Shown here: piece after piece, positions 42,654 through 52,814 of the stretch
Position numbering within the stretch: position 1 is the first letter of the stretch
Layout of the letters: every line of letters begins with the position of its first letter
Assembly (NCBI GenBank): GCA_012510445.1
Contig: JAAZIA010000045.1
Coordinates: 1-64,000, forward strand
Reading direction: 5' to 3'
Source of the DNA: Bacteroidales bacterium
GTDB taxonomy: Bacteria; Bacteroidota; Bacteroidia; Bacteroidales; UBA932
DNA: 64,000 nt
The notes under the pieces: generated by a model
Told to the model about the DNA's origin: nothing
The model's database searches: none
What the model saw: the letters and a program-made list of their open reading frames with translations, nothing else
Made by a program: the position numbers and the translations under genes

Positions 42654-45125
42654 ATGAAATGGCGTAGTCTGTTTGCGGGATTGATTCTTTTTGTAGGGGC
42701 AGCAAGTGCCTGCCCGGCGTGGGGATCTTCTGCAGTACCATTAGATGGAAATTTTCGTACCGGTCAACTAGCCAATGGACTTACGTACTTTATTCAAGTC
42801 AATGATCTACCCAAAGGACAAATGCACTTTGCTTTGGTTCAAAAACCAGTAAGAAAACCTTTTTACCGGCAAGTGCTTCTCTCTCCTTCTCATGTAAAAG
42901 AAGGAGTAGCTCAAATGGAAAGGGTGCTCAGAGAACAGTTGATTACTTCTCCTAAACAATACAGGCCCCACCTGATGGGTGTCATTATAATAGGTGCGTT
43001 CCATGCAGATTCTGTAGAGTCTTTGGTACGTACCCGGCTAAGTGATTTGCCGGCCACAGTGGATGTTATGCAGGCCCAGAAAGTGCCCGATGGAGCAGAC
43101 TCTGCTTTTGCTGCTAAAGCTTTTTCTGCCACACCCTTGCCTCCTGTTTGGCAGGATGGGTGTTATCGTATGGAAATTTCATTCCCCATTCCCGCACTTT
43201 CCAGAGAGCTGCGTGCAGGAAATGAGTTTTTTGTTATGGATTTCCTAAGGCATGTCATGCTCTATGCGGCTAAGGGGCCTTTGACGTATCCGGCCCAAGT
43301 TTATGCTCATAGGGATATGGTTTGGGCAGCCCGCGTTCACCCGGACAGCCTGACAGAGGCATTCAGCCGTCTGGCTCGGGAGTGTGTACGACTGGCGCGA
43401 AGCGGGGTTTCACAGGAGATGTTTGATTTGGCCGGGGAAGATTACCTGCGTAGGGAAACGTGGCGCTATAAAAACAGTAAGGTACGTACCAACCGTTTTA
43501 TAGAACAAGAATGTATACGCCATTTTTTTGACGGAACGCCTATGGCACAAGCTGCCTGGAGGTATGGATTTGTAAGTCGTATGGTGCCTTATGTTACCCT
43601 TAACCACGTCAACCAATATATAAGAGGGATACTTCTTTCTTCAGAACCCGGTATTTTTCTTTACCCGGCCACAAGTGCGGCCGACAGCCTGATGACCCCT
43701 ATAGAGTACCTTCCCGCAGCGTTGCAAGAGGAAAGGGTTCGCTTAGAAGAGGAGCTTGCCGGAATATCCTTTCCCTTTGAAGAGGATCGGCTTATGGAAC
43801 TCTCGGAAAGGATTTTGGATATTGACCTAAGGTTGCAACTGGATAGTTTACAGCGCAGCCAGGTGATTCCGGTTATAGATGCAGACAGTCTGCAAGCATT
43901 ATACAGTAAGGTAAGGTATACGCAAGACAGACCGTTTGTACCGGAGGATATTTCTGTTTCCGAGGATTTGTTACATAGTGGAGAAGTATTGCGCTGTATT
44001 CCTGTGGCGCACCACGATGTTTCTGTATGGCAGCTTTCCGGAGGTTCACTTTTGTATGTACGTCCCGATACTTTGCAACAAGGCAGAATATACTTTGCCG
44101 CTGTAGAAAAAGATCCTATCGCATTTTCATCTTACGTGCCCGGAGAAGGGTTCCGTAAGTATTCCGGACCGCTTTTGTGGAAACAAACTACACAAGGGTT
44201 GTTATTATACAATACTACCACTCCGGATTCTTTACATACGTTTTTACAAGAAGTGGCACGGCAAATAGAGAAAATAACAAGAAACCGGGAATATCGGCAA
44301 GGTATGTGGAGCGAAAGAGAAAAACACATACAGTCTGCCAGAAACTTATCCCGCAACCTGTTGCTTGACAGTTTACGCGTGATGCTTTTTGAAGACCGCT
44401 CACCCGGGAAAGATGCCGTACCCAAAGGGTTTGATTTTATTTGTACCGGAGATGTTCCCACAGACTCTCTGTTATCATGGGCAGAAAAATACCTGGCCGG
44501 TATTCTGTGTACAAAAGGACATACTCGGGAGCCTGTTGCACAAGGCGAGGGCATACGTAGGGGTATGCACAATCAAATCATTCCTTTTCCTAATCCGGCT
44601 GCAGAAAGCAAGGCCGCACGTCTCTACTCGGGCCCTTGTCCTTATACACTAGAACAATATGTCTTGTTGCAGATGCTGGAAAGGCTGGTAGAACAAAGCA
44701 CAGACGGTGCTGTATCTATTCAGTCTTCTTTGGAATATCATCCGCGTGGTCATTACTTCTTCTATATGGGCTTTTCCTCCGATGCCAGAGATCTGGCGTA
44801 CAATCGGCACCGGCTGGATCAAATTCTGGCCAACCTGGCAGCTTTTGGCCCCACACAAGAGCAATTGGAAAAAGCACGTCACTCCCTATTGGTAGAATAC
44901 AAAGAGAACCAACTGGATGCTGCCTGGCATTGCCGTATGCTGGTTGGGTACAGCCGTAGTGGAAGGGATTTTGTGACAGGGTATGGTAACATGCTTCAAC
45001 AAATAGATACTGCTATGGTGAGGGATTTTGTAAGGCAAATTATGGAATACGGAAACGCGGCTTCATTGGTGCTATCGGGTGCAACAAATGAAAGGGAGCA
45101 TACGTCTTATGTAAAAAATCCGTAA
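42654..45125 (+). CDS. M16 (insulinase-like) peptidase homologue lacking HxxEH; probable pseudopeptidase
   Basis: 823 aa; N-terminal LANGLTYFIQVNDLPKGQMHFALVQK typical of Bacteroidetes M16, but no HxxEH anywhere in the translation. Confidence 0.75.
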   Translation: MKWRSLFAGLILFVGAASACPAWGSSAVPLDGNFRTGQLANGLTYFIQVNDLPKGQMHFALVQKPVRKPFYRQVLLSPSHVKEGVAQMERVLREQLITSPKQYRPHLMGVIIIGAFHADSVESLVRTRLSDLPATVDVMQAQKVPDGADSAFAAKAFSATPLPPVWQDGCYRMEISFPIPALSRELRAGNEFFVMDFLRHVMLYAAKGPLTYPAQVYAHRDMVWAARVHPDSLTEAFSRLARECVRLARSGVSQEMFDLAGEDYLRRETWRYKNSKVRTNRFIEQECIRHFFDGTPMAQAAWRYGFVSRMVPYVTLNHVNQYIRGILLSSEPGIFLYPATSAADSLMTPIEYLPAALQEERVRLEEELAGISFPFEEDRLMELSERILDIDLRLQLDSLQRSQVIPVIDADSLQALYSKVRYTQDRPFVPEDISVSEDLLHSGEVLRCIPVAHHDVSVWQLSGGSLLYVRPDTLQQGRIYFAAVEKDPIAFSSYVPGEGFRKYSGPLLWKQTTQGLLLYNTTTPDSLHTFLQEVARQIEKITRNREYRQGMWSEREKHIQSARNLSRNLLLDSLRVMLFEDRSPGKDAVPKGFDFICTGDVPTDSLLSWAEKYLAGILCTKGHTREPVAQGEGIRRGMHNQIIPFPNPAAESKAARLYSGPCPYTLEQYVLLQMLERLVEQSTDGAVSIQSSLEYHPRGHYFFYMGFSSDARDLAYNRHRLDQILANLAAFGPTQEQLEKARHSLLVEYKENQLDAAWHCRMLVGYSRSGRDFVTGYGNMLQQIDTAMVRDFVRQIMEYGNAASLVLSGATNEREHTSYVKNP

Positions 45126-45165
45126 CTTGCACCTCCTTAATGTGACTTTGAAAAATAAGAAACTT

Positions 45166-47733
45166 ATGTTACGCCATTTCATACAACGGATGAACTCTCC
45201 ACTAGCTAGGGTAACCCTTCTTTTTCTTGCCTTTCTTTTGAGCGCATGTATAAAGCCCGGGAGTGATGAGATCTTGGTAACTCCGTACACTAAGATAGAT
45301 TTCCCCGCATCAGGAGAAACGAGCGATTTTGCTATTTCTTCCAATTTTCTTTGGACTATTGAAATATCAGATACTTGGGTTACTATAAATCCCATGAGGG
45401 GATACGGAGACCGTAATGTAACGGTTACGGCTGCACCCAATACAAACCTTGCTGCCCGTGAAGCTACTTTTACCATTTCCGGAGAAAAAGCCGTAAGAGA
45501 AATAACCGTCACGCAAAAAGGAGAGACTCCGCAGCTTACGTTAGACAGTATGCAAAAAACAGTACAAGCTGCCGGAGATACGGTCTCTGTGGGAGTAACT
45601 ACCAATTTGGAGTTGCAAGTGACTCCGGATCAGGGATGGATTTCCTTTACAGAAACACGGACCGTTACCACAACACGTTACGTATTTACTGTGGAACCCA
45701 ATACGTTGCTGGAAGCCAGACAGGGAAGCGTTCTCTTTAAACAAAAAGACGGTTCGCTTTCTGCCGTACTTAGGATAACACAAGACGCAGAAGCACCCGG
45801 TATAGAGGTAGAGACTAAAACAGTGACGGCTACAGCAGAAGGAGGAGCCTATAAAGTAACGGTGGTATCTAATATAGAGTGGGAAGCCACTACAGAAACG
45901 CCCTGGATAGACTTGACCGGAACAAAACTTATGCAGCCCAAAGATTGCGAGTTTACCGTAGCGCCAAACACACGGGTAGAAACAAGGGCAGGTACCATAT
46001 ATATTTGGGCACCGGAACATCCGCAACTGGGACAGACCATTGTAACCGTAACACAGGAAGGAGCAGAGCCTCTGGCAGAACTCACACCGCAAATCTTGGA
46101 AGACATTCCGGCGGAAGGCGGCATATATACCGTAACGGTAGAAACTAATTTTCATTGGCAAACAGACCTTTCCGAAACAGCCGGATGGGTAACCTGTGAA
46201 GAGCAGCCGAATGACCAACTGCGTATTACCATTGAAAAGAACGAAAGTGTACAGCCCAGGTCCACCACATTGGAGGTAGTGGAAAAAGGCGGTACCTATA
46301 AGAAGACACTCATTATAGAGCAACAAGCAGGAGAACGTTTTCTGGAGCTGCCCACACAGTCAAAAATGCCCCAAGCCTCTGCAGCGGGAGGGGTATTAGA
46401 GATTCCCATAACCTCTAATGTACCTTGGAAAGCCACTGTTTCTGAAACATGGTTGACTGTTATAGAAACCAAATCTAAAGAGACAACTATACTTACGTTG
46501 CAGGTAGATCCCAATGAACAAACAGAACCGCGCCAAGCTGCACTTACTGTTATTACAGAGGATCAATCTGAGATGCCTTTATTAGTAGCTCGCATCATAA
46601 GACAGGAAGGCGCGCAACCGCACATTACAGCACAAACCGATACGTTACAAGTTCCTTCTGCCGGCGGATTTTATGAAATTCCCGTACAGGCCAACGTTCC
46701 CTGGAAAATATTTACGTATCCTTCTTGGTTGGAAGACGTGCTTAGTGTAACTACGGAAAGACATGACGGAACCCTTTCTTTCACGGTACTTCCCAACAAA
46801 CAAACTGTTCCACGGTCTGCCAAAATTGAGTTGGTTTCTACAGACAACCGTTTGCGCACAGCACTTGTGATAGAACAAGCTCCCGAACAGGTGTTTGTAA
46901 ACGCCACCTTGGATGCTCCTGATTTTCTGCATAACGAAGGAGATGTATTTACCTTAGCCGTAGAGACTAATATACAGGCAGAGTATGTGCTGGAAGCTCC
47001 TTGGGTGGTTCAGAAAACAGTGAAAACCGAAGACAGAACCACTACCTGGACTTTTGAGGTTTTACCGGTGCCCACAGTAAACAGCCGAACGGCAGTAATA
47101 CAAATACGTAAAGTGGGTACAGAGCAGGTGTTTGCCACGTTCAAATTGACCCAACGCGGAGCACGCGTTGCCCAAAGGGATAGTTTGGCCCTAGTAAGTT
47201 TCTACAACAAAATGCATGGCGAAAATTGGAGAGACACCTATTTATGGATTATACAGCTTCCCGTAGATTCTTGGCCGGGGGTGGTGTTGGAAACAGCCGT
47301 ACGCAACGGAGCTCGTTACGTAAAGGAAATAAGTTTGCCTAATGCTCGTTTGCAAGGTTCCATAGGGGACGGACTGGAAACAGATCCGCTAGCAGTACTC
47401 AGTTACTTGGAAAAACTGGATTTATCCAACAACGAAAAGATAACCGGCTGGCTACCCCTGTCGTGGAGAAACTTAAACAATCTGGAAAAGTTAAACCTTG
47501 AAAGCTGCAACATTGGCAACTACATCCTTTTTGGGTACAACATCCCTGCGCAATATGCTACAGGGCTACGGAGCCTAAAATCTTTAGTCCTGAAAAACAA
47601 CTTGCTTAACGGAGAAATACCACGTGAACTTCTTGATCATCCGTATTTTGAAGAATGGGATTTTGAAAAGAACATACAACCGCAAAAAGGAAGCAACCTA
47701 TTGACTTTACCCCCAGGGTCGGAAGAACCCTGA
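45166..47733 (+). CDS. Lipoprotein with about seven BACON-like domains and a C-terminal LRR module
   Basis: Start trimmed to MLRHFIQRMNSPLARVTLLFLAFLLSAC (lipobox); repeated AEGG/AAGG...N.W...W motifs; LEKLDLSNNEKITGWLPLSWRNLNNLEKLNLESC. Confidence 0.85.
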   Translation: MLRHFIQRMNSPLARVTLLFLAFLLSACIKPGSDEILVTPYTKIDFPASGETSDFAISSNFLWTIEISDTWVTINPMRGYGDRNVTVTAAPNTNLAAREATFTISGEKAVREITVTQKGETPQLTLDSMQKTVQAAGDTVSVGVTTNLELQVTPDQGWISFTETRTVTTTRYVFTVEPNTLLEARQGSVLFKQKDGSLSAVLRITQDAEAPGIEVETKTVTATAEGGAYKVTVVSNIEWEATTETPWIDLTGTKLMQPKDCEFTVAPNTRVETRAGTIYIWAPEHPQLGQTIVTVTQEGAEPLAELTPQILEDIPAEGGIYTVTVETNFHWQTDLSETAGWVTCEEQPNDQLRITIEKNESVQPRSTTLEVVEKGGTYKKTLIIEQQAGERFLELPTQSKMPQASAAGGVLEIPITSNVPWKATVSETWLTVIETKSKETTILTLQVDPNEQTEPRQAALTVITEDQSEMPLLVARIIRQEGAQPHITAQTDTLQVPSAGGFYEIPVQANVPWKIFTYPSWLEDVLSVTTERHDGTLSFTVLPNKQTVPRSAKIELVSTDNRLRTALVIEQAPEQVFVNATLDAPDFLHNEGDVFTLAVETNIQAEYVLEAPWVVQKTVKTEDRTTTWTFEVLPVPTVNSRTAVIQIRKVGTEQVFATFKLTQRGARVAQRDSLALVSFYNKMHGENWRDTYLWIIQLPVDSWPGVVLETAVRNGARYVKEISLPNARLQGSIGDGLETDPLAVLSYLEKLDLSNNEKITGWLPLSWRNLNNLEKLNLESCNIGNYILFGYNIPAQYATGLRSLKSLVLKNNLLNGEIPRELLDHPYFEEWDFEKNIQPQKGSNLLTLPPGSEEP

Positions 47734-47745
47734 TTTCGCAGGGTT
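47726..47745 (+). terminator. Possible terminator hairpin after the BACON/LRR gene
   Basis: AACCCTG-atttcg-CAGGGTT; weak T-tract follows. Confidence 0.4.
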
Positions 47746-47771
47746 TCTAACAAGTTTTCAACAAAAATTAT

Positions 47772-47801
47772 TTTGCGGTTTCAAATTATCGTTTAACTTT
47801 G
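47772..47801 (+). promoter_or_regulatory. Promoter (-33 TTTG, -7 TAACTTTG) for the coiled-coil lipoprotein gene
   Basis: ttttgcggtttcaaattatcgtttaactttgc; about 75 nt upstream of the ATG. Confidence 0.65.
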
Positions 47802-47875
47802 CAATTATATATACCGTAACGGGAAACAGATAATTGATAACTATAAACTTTTGTTTAACTTAAAATTTTTAATGC

Positions 47876-50773
47876 ATGAAAAAATTTTTTAAATGGAGTG
47901 CAGCCTTTTTAGTATTAGGTGTACTCGCTGTGGGCTGTATTAAGAACGAGCCTAGCAACGGCATAGAGGCCATGCGTAATGCAAAAGCCTCTCTGTTAAG
48001 CGCTCAGGCCGAACTTGAAAAAGCCAAAGCACAGGTAGAAATTGCTCAGGCCGCTGTTTTGCAGGCCCAGGCAGGCTTAATAGATGCAAACGCAGCCATT
48101 CTTGCAGCTCAGAAAGCTGCCATAGAGGCAGAAACAGCATGGCAGAAAGCTCTTACAGAATTCCATAAGGAAGGCTGGGAAATAAGAATAAAAGAGATGG
48201 AAGAAGACCTGCGCGCCAGGCAGGCAGAAACAGATGCACTTGTTGCTGCATTTGAACTGCAAATAGCGCAAATGCAGGTAGAACTGATTAATGCACAGCG
48301 TGCTTATGAGGCCTCTCTGCTGGCTTTTGAACGTTGGAAACTAGCCAACATAGATGCTCTTGCACAAGACCTCATTGATGCTCTGGATGCTCTTACTCTT
48401 CAGATTCAAGGTATTATTTATGAGTTGGCAGAAGCACAGATTGATTTGAACTATGCCAAGGCGGAATATTTGTGGTACATTCAGGTAGAATATCCGGAAG
48501 ACATATCCCACATAAGGCAACAGTTGGAAGCCAACAAACGTCGCCTTACCTGTGAAGTGGATTACTTGGAAGGTGTTGTAGCCGCTTACGATGCCTTGTA
48601 CAACAACTACCATGGTGAACTGGACGGTATGATTGCAGAATTCCAGGATATGATTACCATGTTCCGTGCAGGAATTGCAGAAATGGAAATCAGATACATT
48701 GAACTGCAAGAAGAATATTTCTGGTTCAATGATGGTCCATTAAAAGCAGCTCTTGCAGCACTTACTAAATCAAGGAAAGTTGGTATCAAGGGCGTATTTT
48801 CCGATGGTGGCAGCGATCCCAACATCCACGTAGGAAACGGAAATTACGAAATTACTGCTCCTTGGGTAGGAACTCCCAGTATGTTTCTTATAATGAAAAG
48901 AGATATGCGTGTAATTGAAGATACACGTGCAGAGTTTAACGACCAGAATTCAGGACTCATTGAAAGAAACTTGAATGCCAAGAAAACGGCTGCAAACAAT
49001 GCGGTCAAAGCTTATGAAGATAATTGGAAAAAATGGCAGGAATACTATGACGGAGCCCGTATAGAGACAGGTCATACCGGCGCTTTGTACACTGCATGGG
49101 TAAACGCATGGAACGCGTGGGATGCAGACATGAAAGACTACAACGCCCACCTGAACACGTATGACAAGATGTATACAGAGGCCGAAAAATTGATAAGGCT
49201 CTTTATGAAATACATGAACGGTTTTCTGAATGAAGGCAACCTCACAGTTCCCGGAAGTGCTACTATTTCAGAGATTTTAGGTGGAATTGACTTTAACGCA
49301 GGCACCCTGGCTCAATATGTATTTGGCGTAAACGCACAGGCGTTCATAGACGTTGTGAATACCATCATAGGCCTGATTAACCTGCCTACAGAAATTGATG
49401 CTATTGTAACGCAGCTGAAAGGCCTTATGGACGGAACTCACCACGACGGATATCCTCCTTTCTGGGAGCACGCCACTGCTTGGACATACAAACCTACTCC
49501 TGTAGTATACGGAGACATCATGCGTAGCGTTTACAGCAGACAAGATAGAGAGCTTACGCAAATCACTACCAATGACTGGTATTCATGGCTGTTCCTATAT
49601 TGGCTGTTTGAAAACAGAACCGTTGAACTGGGTCTGGATGGACCTAATGGAGGTCCTGTAATTACCATAAATCCGGCTCCCTACACAGATGCTGCAGAAC
49701 AGGTACTGTATGACTTCTTTGGAAAATTAAACAAAGCCAAATATGACGCCTATATGGTTGGTACTTCTACAGCAGCTATTGAAAAAGCCGTTAAGGCCTA
49801 TTACGATGCAGTAGAAGGATTGGGAGATCTTGAAACAAAAATGTTCCGTCCTTTCAATAGGGAGTGGTTTGCTTATAAAGGAGCCGCTAAATTTGAACGG
49901 AGCGATGTGGTTTATACAGTAAAACCTGCCTTGACAGGAATTAAACCGACTCCTTCCACCTATACACCTATAGCGTATAACGATTCGCTTCTCCTGAATG
50001 AAGAGCAACCCGATCCAATAAATGTAAACAATTTCTTCTTTGTTCTGGAAGCCTATAAAGATCAAACAGGCCCCATTCCGTCACTTGACTTTGACATTAC
50101 TTATTTGGACAAATACTGCAACCTGTGGGTTGAATATGCAGCACTGTTGGCTGCTGGTGAAGATTGCGGTAAGCAGTGGTCCCAGTGGGTAGGTGATATG
50201 AGGCTCTGGAAATGGGCAGATAGAGCTACTTATTCCAGTGGTCACTATTTCTACGCCATCTATCTGGACCGCGATTACAGGGCGTATCAAGATACCTGGG
50301 ACCGTGTGGATAATGGCGAATACGCCGCTCTCTATGACAAGATTCAAGAACTGTACGACACAGAGTGGGCAAAATATGAAGATGCACAAGATCTTGCCGA
50401 TGAACTGCAAGACCAAGCAGATGAGCTTGACGACGAATTAGATTATATTGAAGCAATGATTCCCACGTATGAGCTCCTTATTGTATACTACGAGGGCTGG
50501 ATTGCTCAGGCACAATGGGCACACAACGGAGGCAACGTGGCAAATGACGGATTGCTGAGTGCGTGGAATAAAGCAAAACACCGCTTGATTGCCAGACAGA
50601 ACGAGCTGAACAGAGTACTAACAGCTCTTGAGATTCTGGATCAAGAATTCCTTAACGAAGCTCCCTTGTTCTTAGCAGAAATTGAAGCTATCCTGGATAG
50701 AATTGAAACTCTGCAGAAGCAGATGGAAGCTTTAGAAAAGTTACGTGATAAACTGCTGGCAGAATATCTATAA
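47876..50773 (+). CDS. Large coiled-coil lipoprotein, unknown function
   Basis: 965 aa; lipobox LAVGC; long Ala/Glu-rich heptad region at the N-terminus and another coiled coil at the C-terminus; Trp/Tyr-rich middle. Confidence 0.85.
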   Translation: MKKFFKWSAAFLVLGVLAVGCIKNEPSNGIEAMRNAKASLLSAQAELEKAKAQVEIAQAAVLQAQAGLIDANAAILAAQKAAIEAETAWQKALTEFHKEGWEIRIKEMEEDLRARQAETDALVAAFELQIAQMQVELINAQRAYEASLLAFERWKLANIDALAQDLIDALDALTLQIQGIIYELAEAQIDLNYAKAEYLWYIQVEYPEDISHIRQQLEANKRRLTCEVDYLEGVVAAYDALYNNYHGELDGMIAEFQDMITMFRAGIAEMEIRYIELQEEYFWFNDGPLKAALAALTKSRKVGIKGVFSDGGSDPNIHVGNGNYEITAPWVGTPSMFLIMKRDMRVIEDTRAEFNDQNSGLIERNLNAKKTAANNAVKAYEDNWKKWQEYYDGARIETGHTGALYTAWVNAWNAWDADMKDYNAHLNTYDKMYTEAEKLIRLFMKYMNGFLNEGNLTVPGSATISEILGGIDFNAGTLAQYVFGVNAQAFIDVVNTIIGLINLPTEIDAIVTQLKGLMDGTHHDGYPPFWEHATAWTYKPTPVVYGDIMRSVYSRQDRELTQITTNDWYSWLFLYWLFENRTVELGLDGPNGGPVITINPAPYTDAAEQVLYDFFGKLNKAKYDAYMVGTSTAAIEKAVKAYYDAVEGLGDLETKMFRPFNREWFAYKGAAKFERSDVVYTVKPALTGIKPTPSTYTPIAYNDSLLLNEEQPDPINVNNFFFVLEAYKDQTGPIPSLDFDITYLDKYCNLWVEYAALLAAGEDCGKQWSQWVGDMRLWKWADRATYSSGHYFYAIYLDRDYRAYQDTWDRVDNGEYAALYDKIQELYDTEWAKYEDAQDLADELQDQADELDDELDYIEAMIPTYELLIVYYEGWIAQAQWAHNGGNVANDGLLSAWNKAKHRLIARQNELNRVLTALEILDQEFLNEAPLFLAEIEAILDRIETLQKQMEALEKLRDKLLAEYL

Positions 50774-50787
50774 CATACGGATAAGAT

Positions 50788-51651
50788 TTGCGTATAATGA
50801 TTAAAAAACTTAGCATATTTCTGATAGCTGTTCTAACGGTTGCGTCTTTAGGGGCGCAACCGGCGGAACGCTCCGGAAGTGCTGTATATGCTCCGCGTGC
50901 AGGGCAAGTGCAAGTCTCTGCGGTGTTGGGAAGCAGTCTGTATTTTGAATTCCTGGATAACCTCACGCCCTTGTTGCCCGGCTACTTGCCCGGTGATGAA
51001 TTAGGTATAGACCCTATGGGGTACTCAGTGGGGTATTACCTGCAAATGGGAAGTCTGAATAAAAATTCAGCAGCCAATATTGCCGGAATTCAAGCCAAAC
51101 TGTTTTTGACAAACCGCTTGGCAGTGCACTCTATGTTTGCTATGCAAATAGATGTCACCCCGCAACGCGATTATATAGAAGGCATAGATCTGGATAGTCA
51201 GGGATTACTGGATCTGGGGGGCATACAGTGGGTTGAAGGCAGACTGACCAACAAATACCTTGTAAATGTTGGAGCAGATTACTACTTCAACAACTGTAAC
51301 GGCAGGCTGTTTCCCTACGTTGGTGTGCTGGGAGGTTTCCAACACGCCAGGGTACAAGCCTACCTTCCCTATACCGGGATAGAAATTCCGGTAGGGAGTG
51401 GCCAAACAGACCCCATTGAACTCTATGCACTAGACAGACGTGCCGGAGAAGCATATGCAATATCCGGAGCCATTACGGCCGGCGTGGAATACAATTTCCT
51501 TCCCGGTATGAACATAGCTCTTGAGGTACGCCCTTTCAATTATTACTATTCAGCAGTCCGTATGTATGCAGATGGCCAAGAATTTAATGCCTATGAAATG
51601 CAATTTAAATTCTTTGCTTTTCCGCAACTGAAGATAGGATTCCGTTTTTAG
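50788..51651 (+). CDS. Outer membrane beta-barrel protein
   Basis: 287 aa (start may be MIKKLSIF at 50797); signal peptide; alternating strands; ends KIGFRF. Confidence 0.75.
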   Translation: MRIMIKKLSIFLIAVLTVASLGAQPAERSGSAVYAPRAGQVQVSAVLGSSLYFEFLDNLTPLLPGYLPGDELGIDPMGYSVGYYLQMGSLNKNSAANIAGIQAKLFLTNRLAVHSMFAMQIDVTPQRDYIEGIDLDSQGLLDLGGIQWVEGRLTNKYLVNVGADYYFNNCNGRLFPYVGVLGGFQHARVQAYLPYTGIEIPVGSGQTDPIELYALDRRAGEAYAISGAITAGVEYNFLPGMNIALEVRPFNYYYSAVRMYADGQEFNAYEMQFKFFAFPQLKIGFRF

Positions 51652-51673
51652 TAATCATTGAATATTCTTATAG

Positions 51674-51703
51674 AACCGCTCCTGCAAAGGGCGGTTTTTT
51701 TTT
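51674..51703 (+). terminator. Rho-independent terminator
   Basis: AACCGC-tcctgcaaagg-GCGGTT followed by a T-tract. Confidence 0.8.
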
Positions 51704-51705
51704 AT

Positions 51706-51713
51706 TACCTTTG
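51706..51713 (+). promoter_or_regulatory. -7 element TACCTTTG upstream of the small lipoprotein gene
   Basis: Consensus match 20 nt upstream of ATG 51733. Confidence 0.6.
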
Positions 51714-51732
51714 TAGCTCAAACAGAACATAT

Positions 51733-52242
51733 ATGAAAAAAATGGTAGTACTGGCTCTGCTTATAGCAGGGATCACAGCTTGCAAGAGTACGGCAAACGT
51801 TCCTCATCTGAATGTAGAATTGCCCAAATCTTTGAAAGAAAATAAAGAACTCAAAGAATTTGTGTTGGAAGCACAGAAAGAAGCCAATGAGCTGGCGGTC
51901 GGTTGTGTTAAAATGCATGCAGAAGCGCTTCCTTTTCTGGAGGCAGATTTTGATGCATTAGATGAAAAACAACAAGTAGCCTTGGTGAAGCTGGATTATG
52001 ATTACGTAGAAATGTGGTATAACTTCAACGTTAAATCTACAACAAGGGCTTTTAAAATCATGCAATACATGCAGGACAAGAGCCGATTGCCCCAAGAAAT
52101 CGCAGACCTGGGGAAAACTATGGCGGTTGTAAATCAATTTGTACAGGAATTGAAAGATACGTACGGAGAAGACCTTAGGTTAGATCCGTATCCGGTGACA
52201 GATCCGGAGTCTGAAGTTCCGGAGTTGTTGGAAGTAGAATAG
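51733..52242 (+). CDS. Hypothetical lipoprotein
   Basis: Start trimmed to MKKMVVLALLIAGITAC (lipobox); 169 aa. Confidence 0.75.
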   Translation: MKKMVVLALLIAGITACKSTANVPHLNVELPKSLKENKELKEFVLEAQKEANELAVGCVKMHAEALPFLEADFDALDEKQQVALVKLDYDYVEMWYNFNVKSTTRAFKIMQYMQDKSRLPQEIADLGKTMAVVNQFVQELKDTYGEDLRLDPYPVTDPESEVPELLEVE

Positions 52243-52814
52243 TGGTTCTGGTTTCAGATAAAATTATAGTCAGCGAAAGTGTGCTTACTGAATACTTTTG
52301 CTGCCATCCCGCACTTTGTAAAGGTTTTTGCTGCGTGGAAGGAGATAGCGGAGCCCCTCTCACCCCGGAAGAATGTGTTTTACTGGATGCAGAATGGCCA
52401 CGTTTTGCACATTATATGCAACCCAGTGGTATAGAAACCATTAAGCGTCAAGGTGCCTGGGTTATAGATGTTGAAGAAGATGCCGTTACTCCACTGATAG
52501 ACAAAGGAGAGTGTGCCTATGCCTATTTTAACGACAGCGGCACTTGTATGTGTGCCATAGAAAAACATTGGACAGTACACCAAGCTCCTTTGCGCAAACC
52601 CAACTCCTGTTGGCTGTATCCCATACGGGTACAGAAATTATCTAACGGGTCTATAGGTCTTAATTACCACCGCTGGCATTTATGTCAACCGGCCAGAGAG
52701 TTGGGTACAGAGAAAAAAATGCGTGTCTTCGAATTTTGCAAAGAACCTCTTATTCATTGTTTTGGAGAAAAGGTATATCGCGCCATTACTATGGCTGCAG
52801 ACAATTCTCTATAA
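52242..52814 (+). CDS. DUF3109 family Cys-rich protein
   Basis: 190 aa, GTG start; FCCHPALCKGFCCVEGDSGAPL, CAYAYF..GTCMCAIEK, CWLYPIRV. Confidence 0.85.
   Translation: MVLVSDKIIVSESVLTEYFCCHPALCKGFCCVEGDSGAPLTPEECVLLDAEWPRFAHYMQPSGIETIKRQGAWVIDVEEDAVTPLIDKGECAYAYFNDSGTCMCAIEKHWTVHQAPLRKPNSCWLYPIRVQKLSNGSIGLNYHRWHLCQPARELGTEKKMRVFEFCKEPLIHCFGEKVYRAITMAADNSL

Follow-up and report, generated by a model that had tools for sequence, protein, structure and literature searches.

A coiled-coil lipoprotein and a PF16961 outer-membrane barrel are encoded as an obligate-looking gene pair across Bacteroidales

Computational analysis of a Bacteroidales locus and its relatives revealed that the genes for a coiled-coil lipoprotein, hereafter CC, and for an outer-membrane barrel of family PF16961 (OmpA_like) form an obligate-looking pair across Bacteroidales. 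The window, by which we mean the whole analysed stretch of 64,000 nucleotides, lies within contig C30 of a Bacteroidales metagenome genome of 1.7 Mb in 51 contigs. We propose, with about as much belief as doubt, that the two genes constitute an operon in which the outer-membrane barrel docks the N-terminal tag of a hairpin stalk lipoprotein, which would project outward somewhat more likely than inward. The relevant features of the window are as follows.

42654 to 45125, plus strand: inactive M16-family gene, a neighbour outside the core, with the HxxEH region missing
45166 to 47733, plus strand: lipoprotein with six BACON stretches and LRR, a neighbour, predicted to be transcribed with the M16 gene
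47794 to 47801, plus strand: putative TAnnTTTG (-7 type) promoter of the CC-barrel unit, read from sequence, 82 bases 5' of the CC start codon
47876 to 50773, plus strand: CC lipoprotein, 965 aa, the first core gene
50797 to 51651, plus strand: PF16961 (OmpA_like) outer-membrane barrel, 284 aa, eight strands, the second core gene
51672 to 51703, plus strand: terminator-like GC hairpin with T-run, read from sequence, which would close the CC-barrel unit
51733 to 52242, plus strand: small lipoprotein, a neighbour with its own putative promoter (TACCTTTG at -27), overlapping the start of the DUF3109 gene
52242 to 52814, plus strand: DUF3109 protein, a neighbour beyond the originally reported span, predicted to be transcribed with the small lipoprotein

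The initial annotation had grouped the five consecutive plus-strand exported genes between 42654 and 52242 as a single surface module. All five are present at the expected coordinates, the three lipoproteins carry the lipoboxes LSAC, AVGC and ITAC, and the M16 and BACON genes are separated by 40 bp, as had been described. The gap between the CC and barrel genes, reported as 14 bp, is instead 23 bp because the barrel starts at the ATG at 50797, the smaller figure being obtained when measuring from an upstream TTG. Pfam and NCBIfam searches bore out the reported absence of SusCD, T9SS and fimbrial signatures, since none of the five proteins matched a TonB-dependent barrel with SusD, a T9SS sorting domain or a fimbrillin domain; a PADLOC search for defence systems returned weak coil-type matches only, and no PHROGs phage protein family was matched. 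An uncharacterised envelope-related feature is present, as had been supposed, and its unit comprises two genes, not five.

The pairing is evident from the genomic context of the barrel in relatives, where 54 of 55 evaluable barrels have directly upstream of them either a CC lipoprotein gene or a coil fragment bordering the end of a contig. These 55 strong barrels are accounted for by 49 full-length matches to the CC tag, three partial profile matches, two contig-end coil fragments (L082 and L178) and a single true exception, the second PF16961 barrel of genome G081 (L073:9247-10053), which lacks a CC gene in a genome that also carries a normal cassette. The gene preceding this barrel, identified by eye, is presumably pyruvate:ferredoxin oxidoreductase-like. 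Two weak barrels (L120 and L121) are likewise without CC, and two others that are known by their coordinates and were dropped in ORF calling (L170 and L173) stand outside the tally; both adjoin a CC gene. The barrel, own genus included, was found in 63 of 250 genomes of the family, representing 12 of its 26 genera, and the pair spans 12 genera here and, beyond the family, at least seven further families of Bacteroidales (L112, L113, L115-L118, L179 and L180), with a median intergenic gap of 36 bp; it is absent from most Bacteroidales. The flanks of the pair vary and are unrelated, among them a ribosomal operon, lptC/ppiD-like genes and pnp/rpsO. The whole cassette is duplicated in tandem in genus g5 (L122:9189-15815), and at two loci of family f93 (L115:7476-11349 and L179:5145-9026) the barrel gene lies between two different CC genes.

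Presence and absence of the two genes are also matched. When an identical set of 198 genomes of the order was searched with PF16961 and with a profile covering 80 residues of the CC N-terminus, strong matches to both were confined to the same eight genomes (G000, G277, G285, G326, G365, G378, G380 and G442; Fisher p = 2e-14, uncorrected for phylogeny). Weaker PF16961 members were detected in G395 and G411, the former without an adjoining CC gene, and a phylum-wide sample yielded no strong barrel match except in the own genome. Distances between barrels correlate with those between CC tags (Spearman 0.67, 48 pairs, 0 of 2000 permutations), a correlation for which linked inheritance alone can suffice.

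The most constant part of CC is a short tag following the lipidated cysteine, with the consensus C-[IVL]-x(3)-E-[PS]-x-G-[IV]-x(2)-[LMI]-R-x-A-K-A. Aliphatic residues occupy positions +2 and +10 in all 54 distinct homologues, and the remaining positions are retained to varying extents (E+6 in 43, P/S+7 in 50, G+9 in 41, R+14 in 51, A+16 in 45, K+17 in 38 and A+18 in 44). Within the genus, identity is 0.95 over CC residues 1-40 (signal peptide included), compared with 0.39-0.69 in later blocks and 0.87 in the barrel; in the own genus, CC identity is 42-71% and barrel identity 82-93%. This combination of a constant short end with a variable remainder suggests that the tag is a docking or sorting signal.

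The CC protein of the window consists of a signal peptide (residues 1-20), the lipidated Cys21, the tag (21-38), N-terminal arm helices (28-283), a mixed head (about 287-790) and C-terminal arm helices (791-964); the structural model, of modest confidence (pLDDT 65.7), has helices up to 283, a mixed centre to about 790 and helices again from 791 to 964. Members range from 347 to 1476 aa, the smallest (347-354 aa) comprising little beyond the two arms, and composition places coils near both ends in 34 of 36. Coils make up a median fraction of 0.52 in these members, compared with 0.10 in 416 other proteins 300 aa or longer, and compositional coil stretches reach about 440 residues. Coils at both ends, smallest members reduced to the arms and the model together support a hairpin stalk for CC, in which the head is optional and the two arms would pair in antiparallel fashion. 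In the genus comparison, the head does not evolve faster than the coil and therefore gives no sign of diversifying surface selection. No Pfam family matched CC, a PDB sequence search with a single CC protein found no match, and a search of the PDB with the CC profile retrieved generic coiled coils only. Foldseek returned generic coil architecture together with PrgA of Enterococcus (PDB 6z9l) as the best match (E 1.9e-4, TM 0.11). PrgA resembles CC in having a coiled-coil stalk built from both ends of the protein with an inserted domain, at this TM score an analogy of architecture only, and differs in being a Gram-positive, wall-anchored protein without a barrel partner.

The barrel belongs to an already known family. 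The window protein matches PF16961 with 48.4 bits (E 1.3e-12; curated cut-off 26.6 bits), as do all 29 barrels tested, and its model, of moderate confidence (pLDDT 59.8), has eight strands, with OprF, OmpW and OmpA as the best PDB matches, which places it in the same fold class. Its C-terminus is GFRF. The peptidoglycan-binding domain PF00691 is absent from both the barrel and CC, so that this is not OmpA proper. The Pfam description of PF16961, as a putative OmpA-OmpF-like porin family, names no partner, whereas here the family goes together with a coiled-coil lipoprotein outside any Pfam family.

From these features, we infer a physical complex in which the barrel would fold into the outer membrane and pair with CC via the N-terminal tag, a stretch of roughly 18 residues immediately following the lipidated cysteine. 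CC would leave the membrane with its N-terminal coiled arm, carry a species-specific head at its middle and come back with its C-terminal coiled arm. Since the tag would pair with the barrel and CC would fold as a hairpin, barrel and lipid would together hold a long stalk bearing a variable, presumably functional head. The stalk, adhesin and anchor that had been proposed for the five genes are thereby retained in part: stalk and anchor suit the architecture of the CC-barrel pair, and an adhesin role is no more than possible.

The stalk could point in either direction, and we slightly favour the outward orientation, as a surface stalk or display structure, over the periplasmic one. A coil of about 440 residues, if straight, would be longer than the periplasm, and 40 of the 54 homologues carry two or more acidic residues among the six positions that follow the lipidated cysteine (+2 to +7), the criterion for surface export (LES; PMC12578637). 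The preference is only mild because such coils may bend and because the tag of the own genus, CIKNEPS, has a single acidic residue in this interval; nor is CIKNEPS an exact match to K-(D/E)2, the surface signal defined experimentally in Capnocytophaga (PMC5080379).

This single acidic residue would accord with a somewhat less likely alternative in which the same pair points inward, as a spacer or tether between the outer membrane and either the cell wall or the inner membrane. Several genera carry the cassette (L071, L078, L079 and L084) directly 3' of genes that, by eye, we take to be lptC-like and ppiD-like, a possible envelope-biogenesis context, and the barrel itself, whose periplasmic turns are short, lacks a wall-binding domain, so that a partner would be useful to it. 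Long coiled coils combined with an outer-membrane barrel are known as connectors from OmpM of diderm Firmicutes and SlpA of Deinococcus (PMC10628300, PMC9388160), of which the pair would be a split version. In those proteins, however, coil, wall-binding domain and barrel are united in one chain, whereas here there are two proteins and a lipid anchor, and none of 22 CC proteins has a peptidoglycan-binding domain. Lengths of 347-1476 aa with coils of this extent would also be odd for a spacer of fixed width, and most Bacteroidales manage without the pair.

It is also conceivable, though quite improbable, that the barrel is no structural partner and serves surface assembly, taking the tag and flipping or threading its one lipoprotein outward. 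One dedicated barrel for each lipoprotein, a conserved tag beside the lipid and a divergent passenger would all be expected of such a helper, but an eight-stranded barrel offers a folded protein no open pore, Slam- and BamA-like domains were not detected in this one, and Bacteroidota already possess a general export signal for surface lipoproteins (PMC5080379).

Promoter positions delimit the CC-barrel unit from its neighbours. In most or all loci of the genus TAnnTTTG lies upstream of the M16, CC and small lipoprotein genes, and it was never found 5' of the BACON or barrel genes. At CC the motif is present in all nine loci of the genus, the window among them, whose upstream sequence is intact, as TAACTTTG or TATCTTTG at -82 to -111; in the window, the Bacteroidetes-type TAACTTTG at -82 agrees with the earlier assignment of a separate promoter to CC. 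The hairpin with T-run at 51672-51703 parts the barrel from the small lipoprotein gene in the window. Given the genus-wide motif positions and this hairpin, the sequence points to three probable transcription units, M16-BACON, CC-barrel and small lipoprotein-DUF3109. As a gauge of high expression, codon usage compared with ribosomal proteins ranks CC 5 of 70 and the barrel 52 of 70, within a narrow range.

The neighbouring genes are conserved over a much shorter distance. Pfam detects only M16_C in the first protein, the HxxEH zinc-binding motif is absent from all 11 genus orthologues checked, and the deletion around it, of about 118 residues relative to PDB 9ldy, is genus-wide, confirming that this pseudo-peptidase is truly degenerate. 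A separate, longer M16-family gene, with an open frame of 967 residues, is located at about 115 kb in G000:C2. The second protein contains six BACON stretches and LRR, and the small lipoprotein has no Pfam match. In the own genus (UBA5433, WOFB08, Bact_09, ADurb and DTU002, for example, which from their names we take to be mostly anaerobic digester genomes), the M16, CC, barrel and small lipoprotein genes are collinear. The five-gene order is kept in this genus only, and the sister genus g19 retains part of it, with BACON also beside the CC-barrel pair and, in one genome, the small lipoprotein too. The small lipoprotein and DUF3109 genes are also kept as a pair in the sister-genus locus L066.

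A single five-gene operon was rejected because of the promoter positions together with the limited conservation of the M16, BACON and small lipoprotein genes. The broader proposal of one surface assembly built from all five products is very improbable and largely refuted: the order is kept in the own genus and all five products are exported, but there are three promoter-defined units, and beyond the genus only CC and barrel persist widely. The expected conservation of the neighbourhood in relatives holds for the CC-barrel pair across Bacteroidales, a unit to which the M16, BACON and small lipoprotein genes do not belong. Chance or passive linkage of CC and barrel without a common function is scarcely credible, since short intergenic gaps may be neutral but the pair survives many changes of flank and family with matched presence and absence.

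Outer-membrane barrels partnered by lipoproteins have precedents in Bacteroidota, namely SusCD, BtuBG and BAM with its surface lipoproteins; these resemble the pair in combining the two kinds of protein and differ in using large TonB-dependent or BAM barrels. To our knowledge, no Bacteroidota barrel-lipoprotein complex joins an eight-stranded PF16961 barrel to a coiled-coil stalk. Phrase searches of open-access papers found no mention of PF16961 and no description of the pair, which thus appears to be an undescribed case of an outer-membrane barrel with a dedicated lipoprotein. More tentatively than the docked stalk itself, we suggest that the pair might represent a new type of Bacteroidales-specific surface appendage. 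Its coiled-coil hairpin, anchored by lipid, would extend over tens of nanometres, bear a lineage-specific head and be held in the outer membrane by a dedicated eight-stranded barrel that recognises the 18-residue tag.

These findings raise the testable question of how so long a lipoprotein works together with a small closed barrel, and whether it does so outside or inside the outer membrane. They supply a probable partner for barrels whose family has no annotation beyond putative porin, render an unclassified family of coiled-coil lipoproteins definable by a short tag, and link the two proteins in Bacteroidales of digesters, termites and the ruminant gut.
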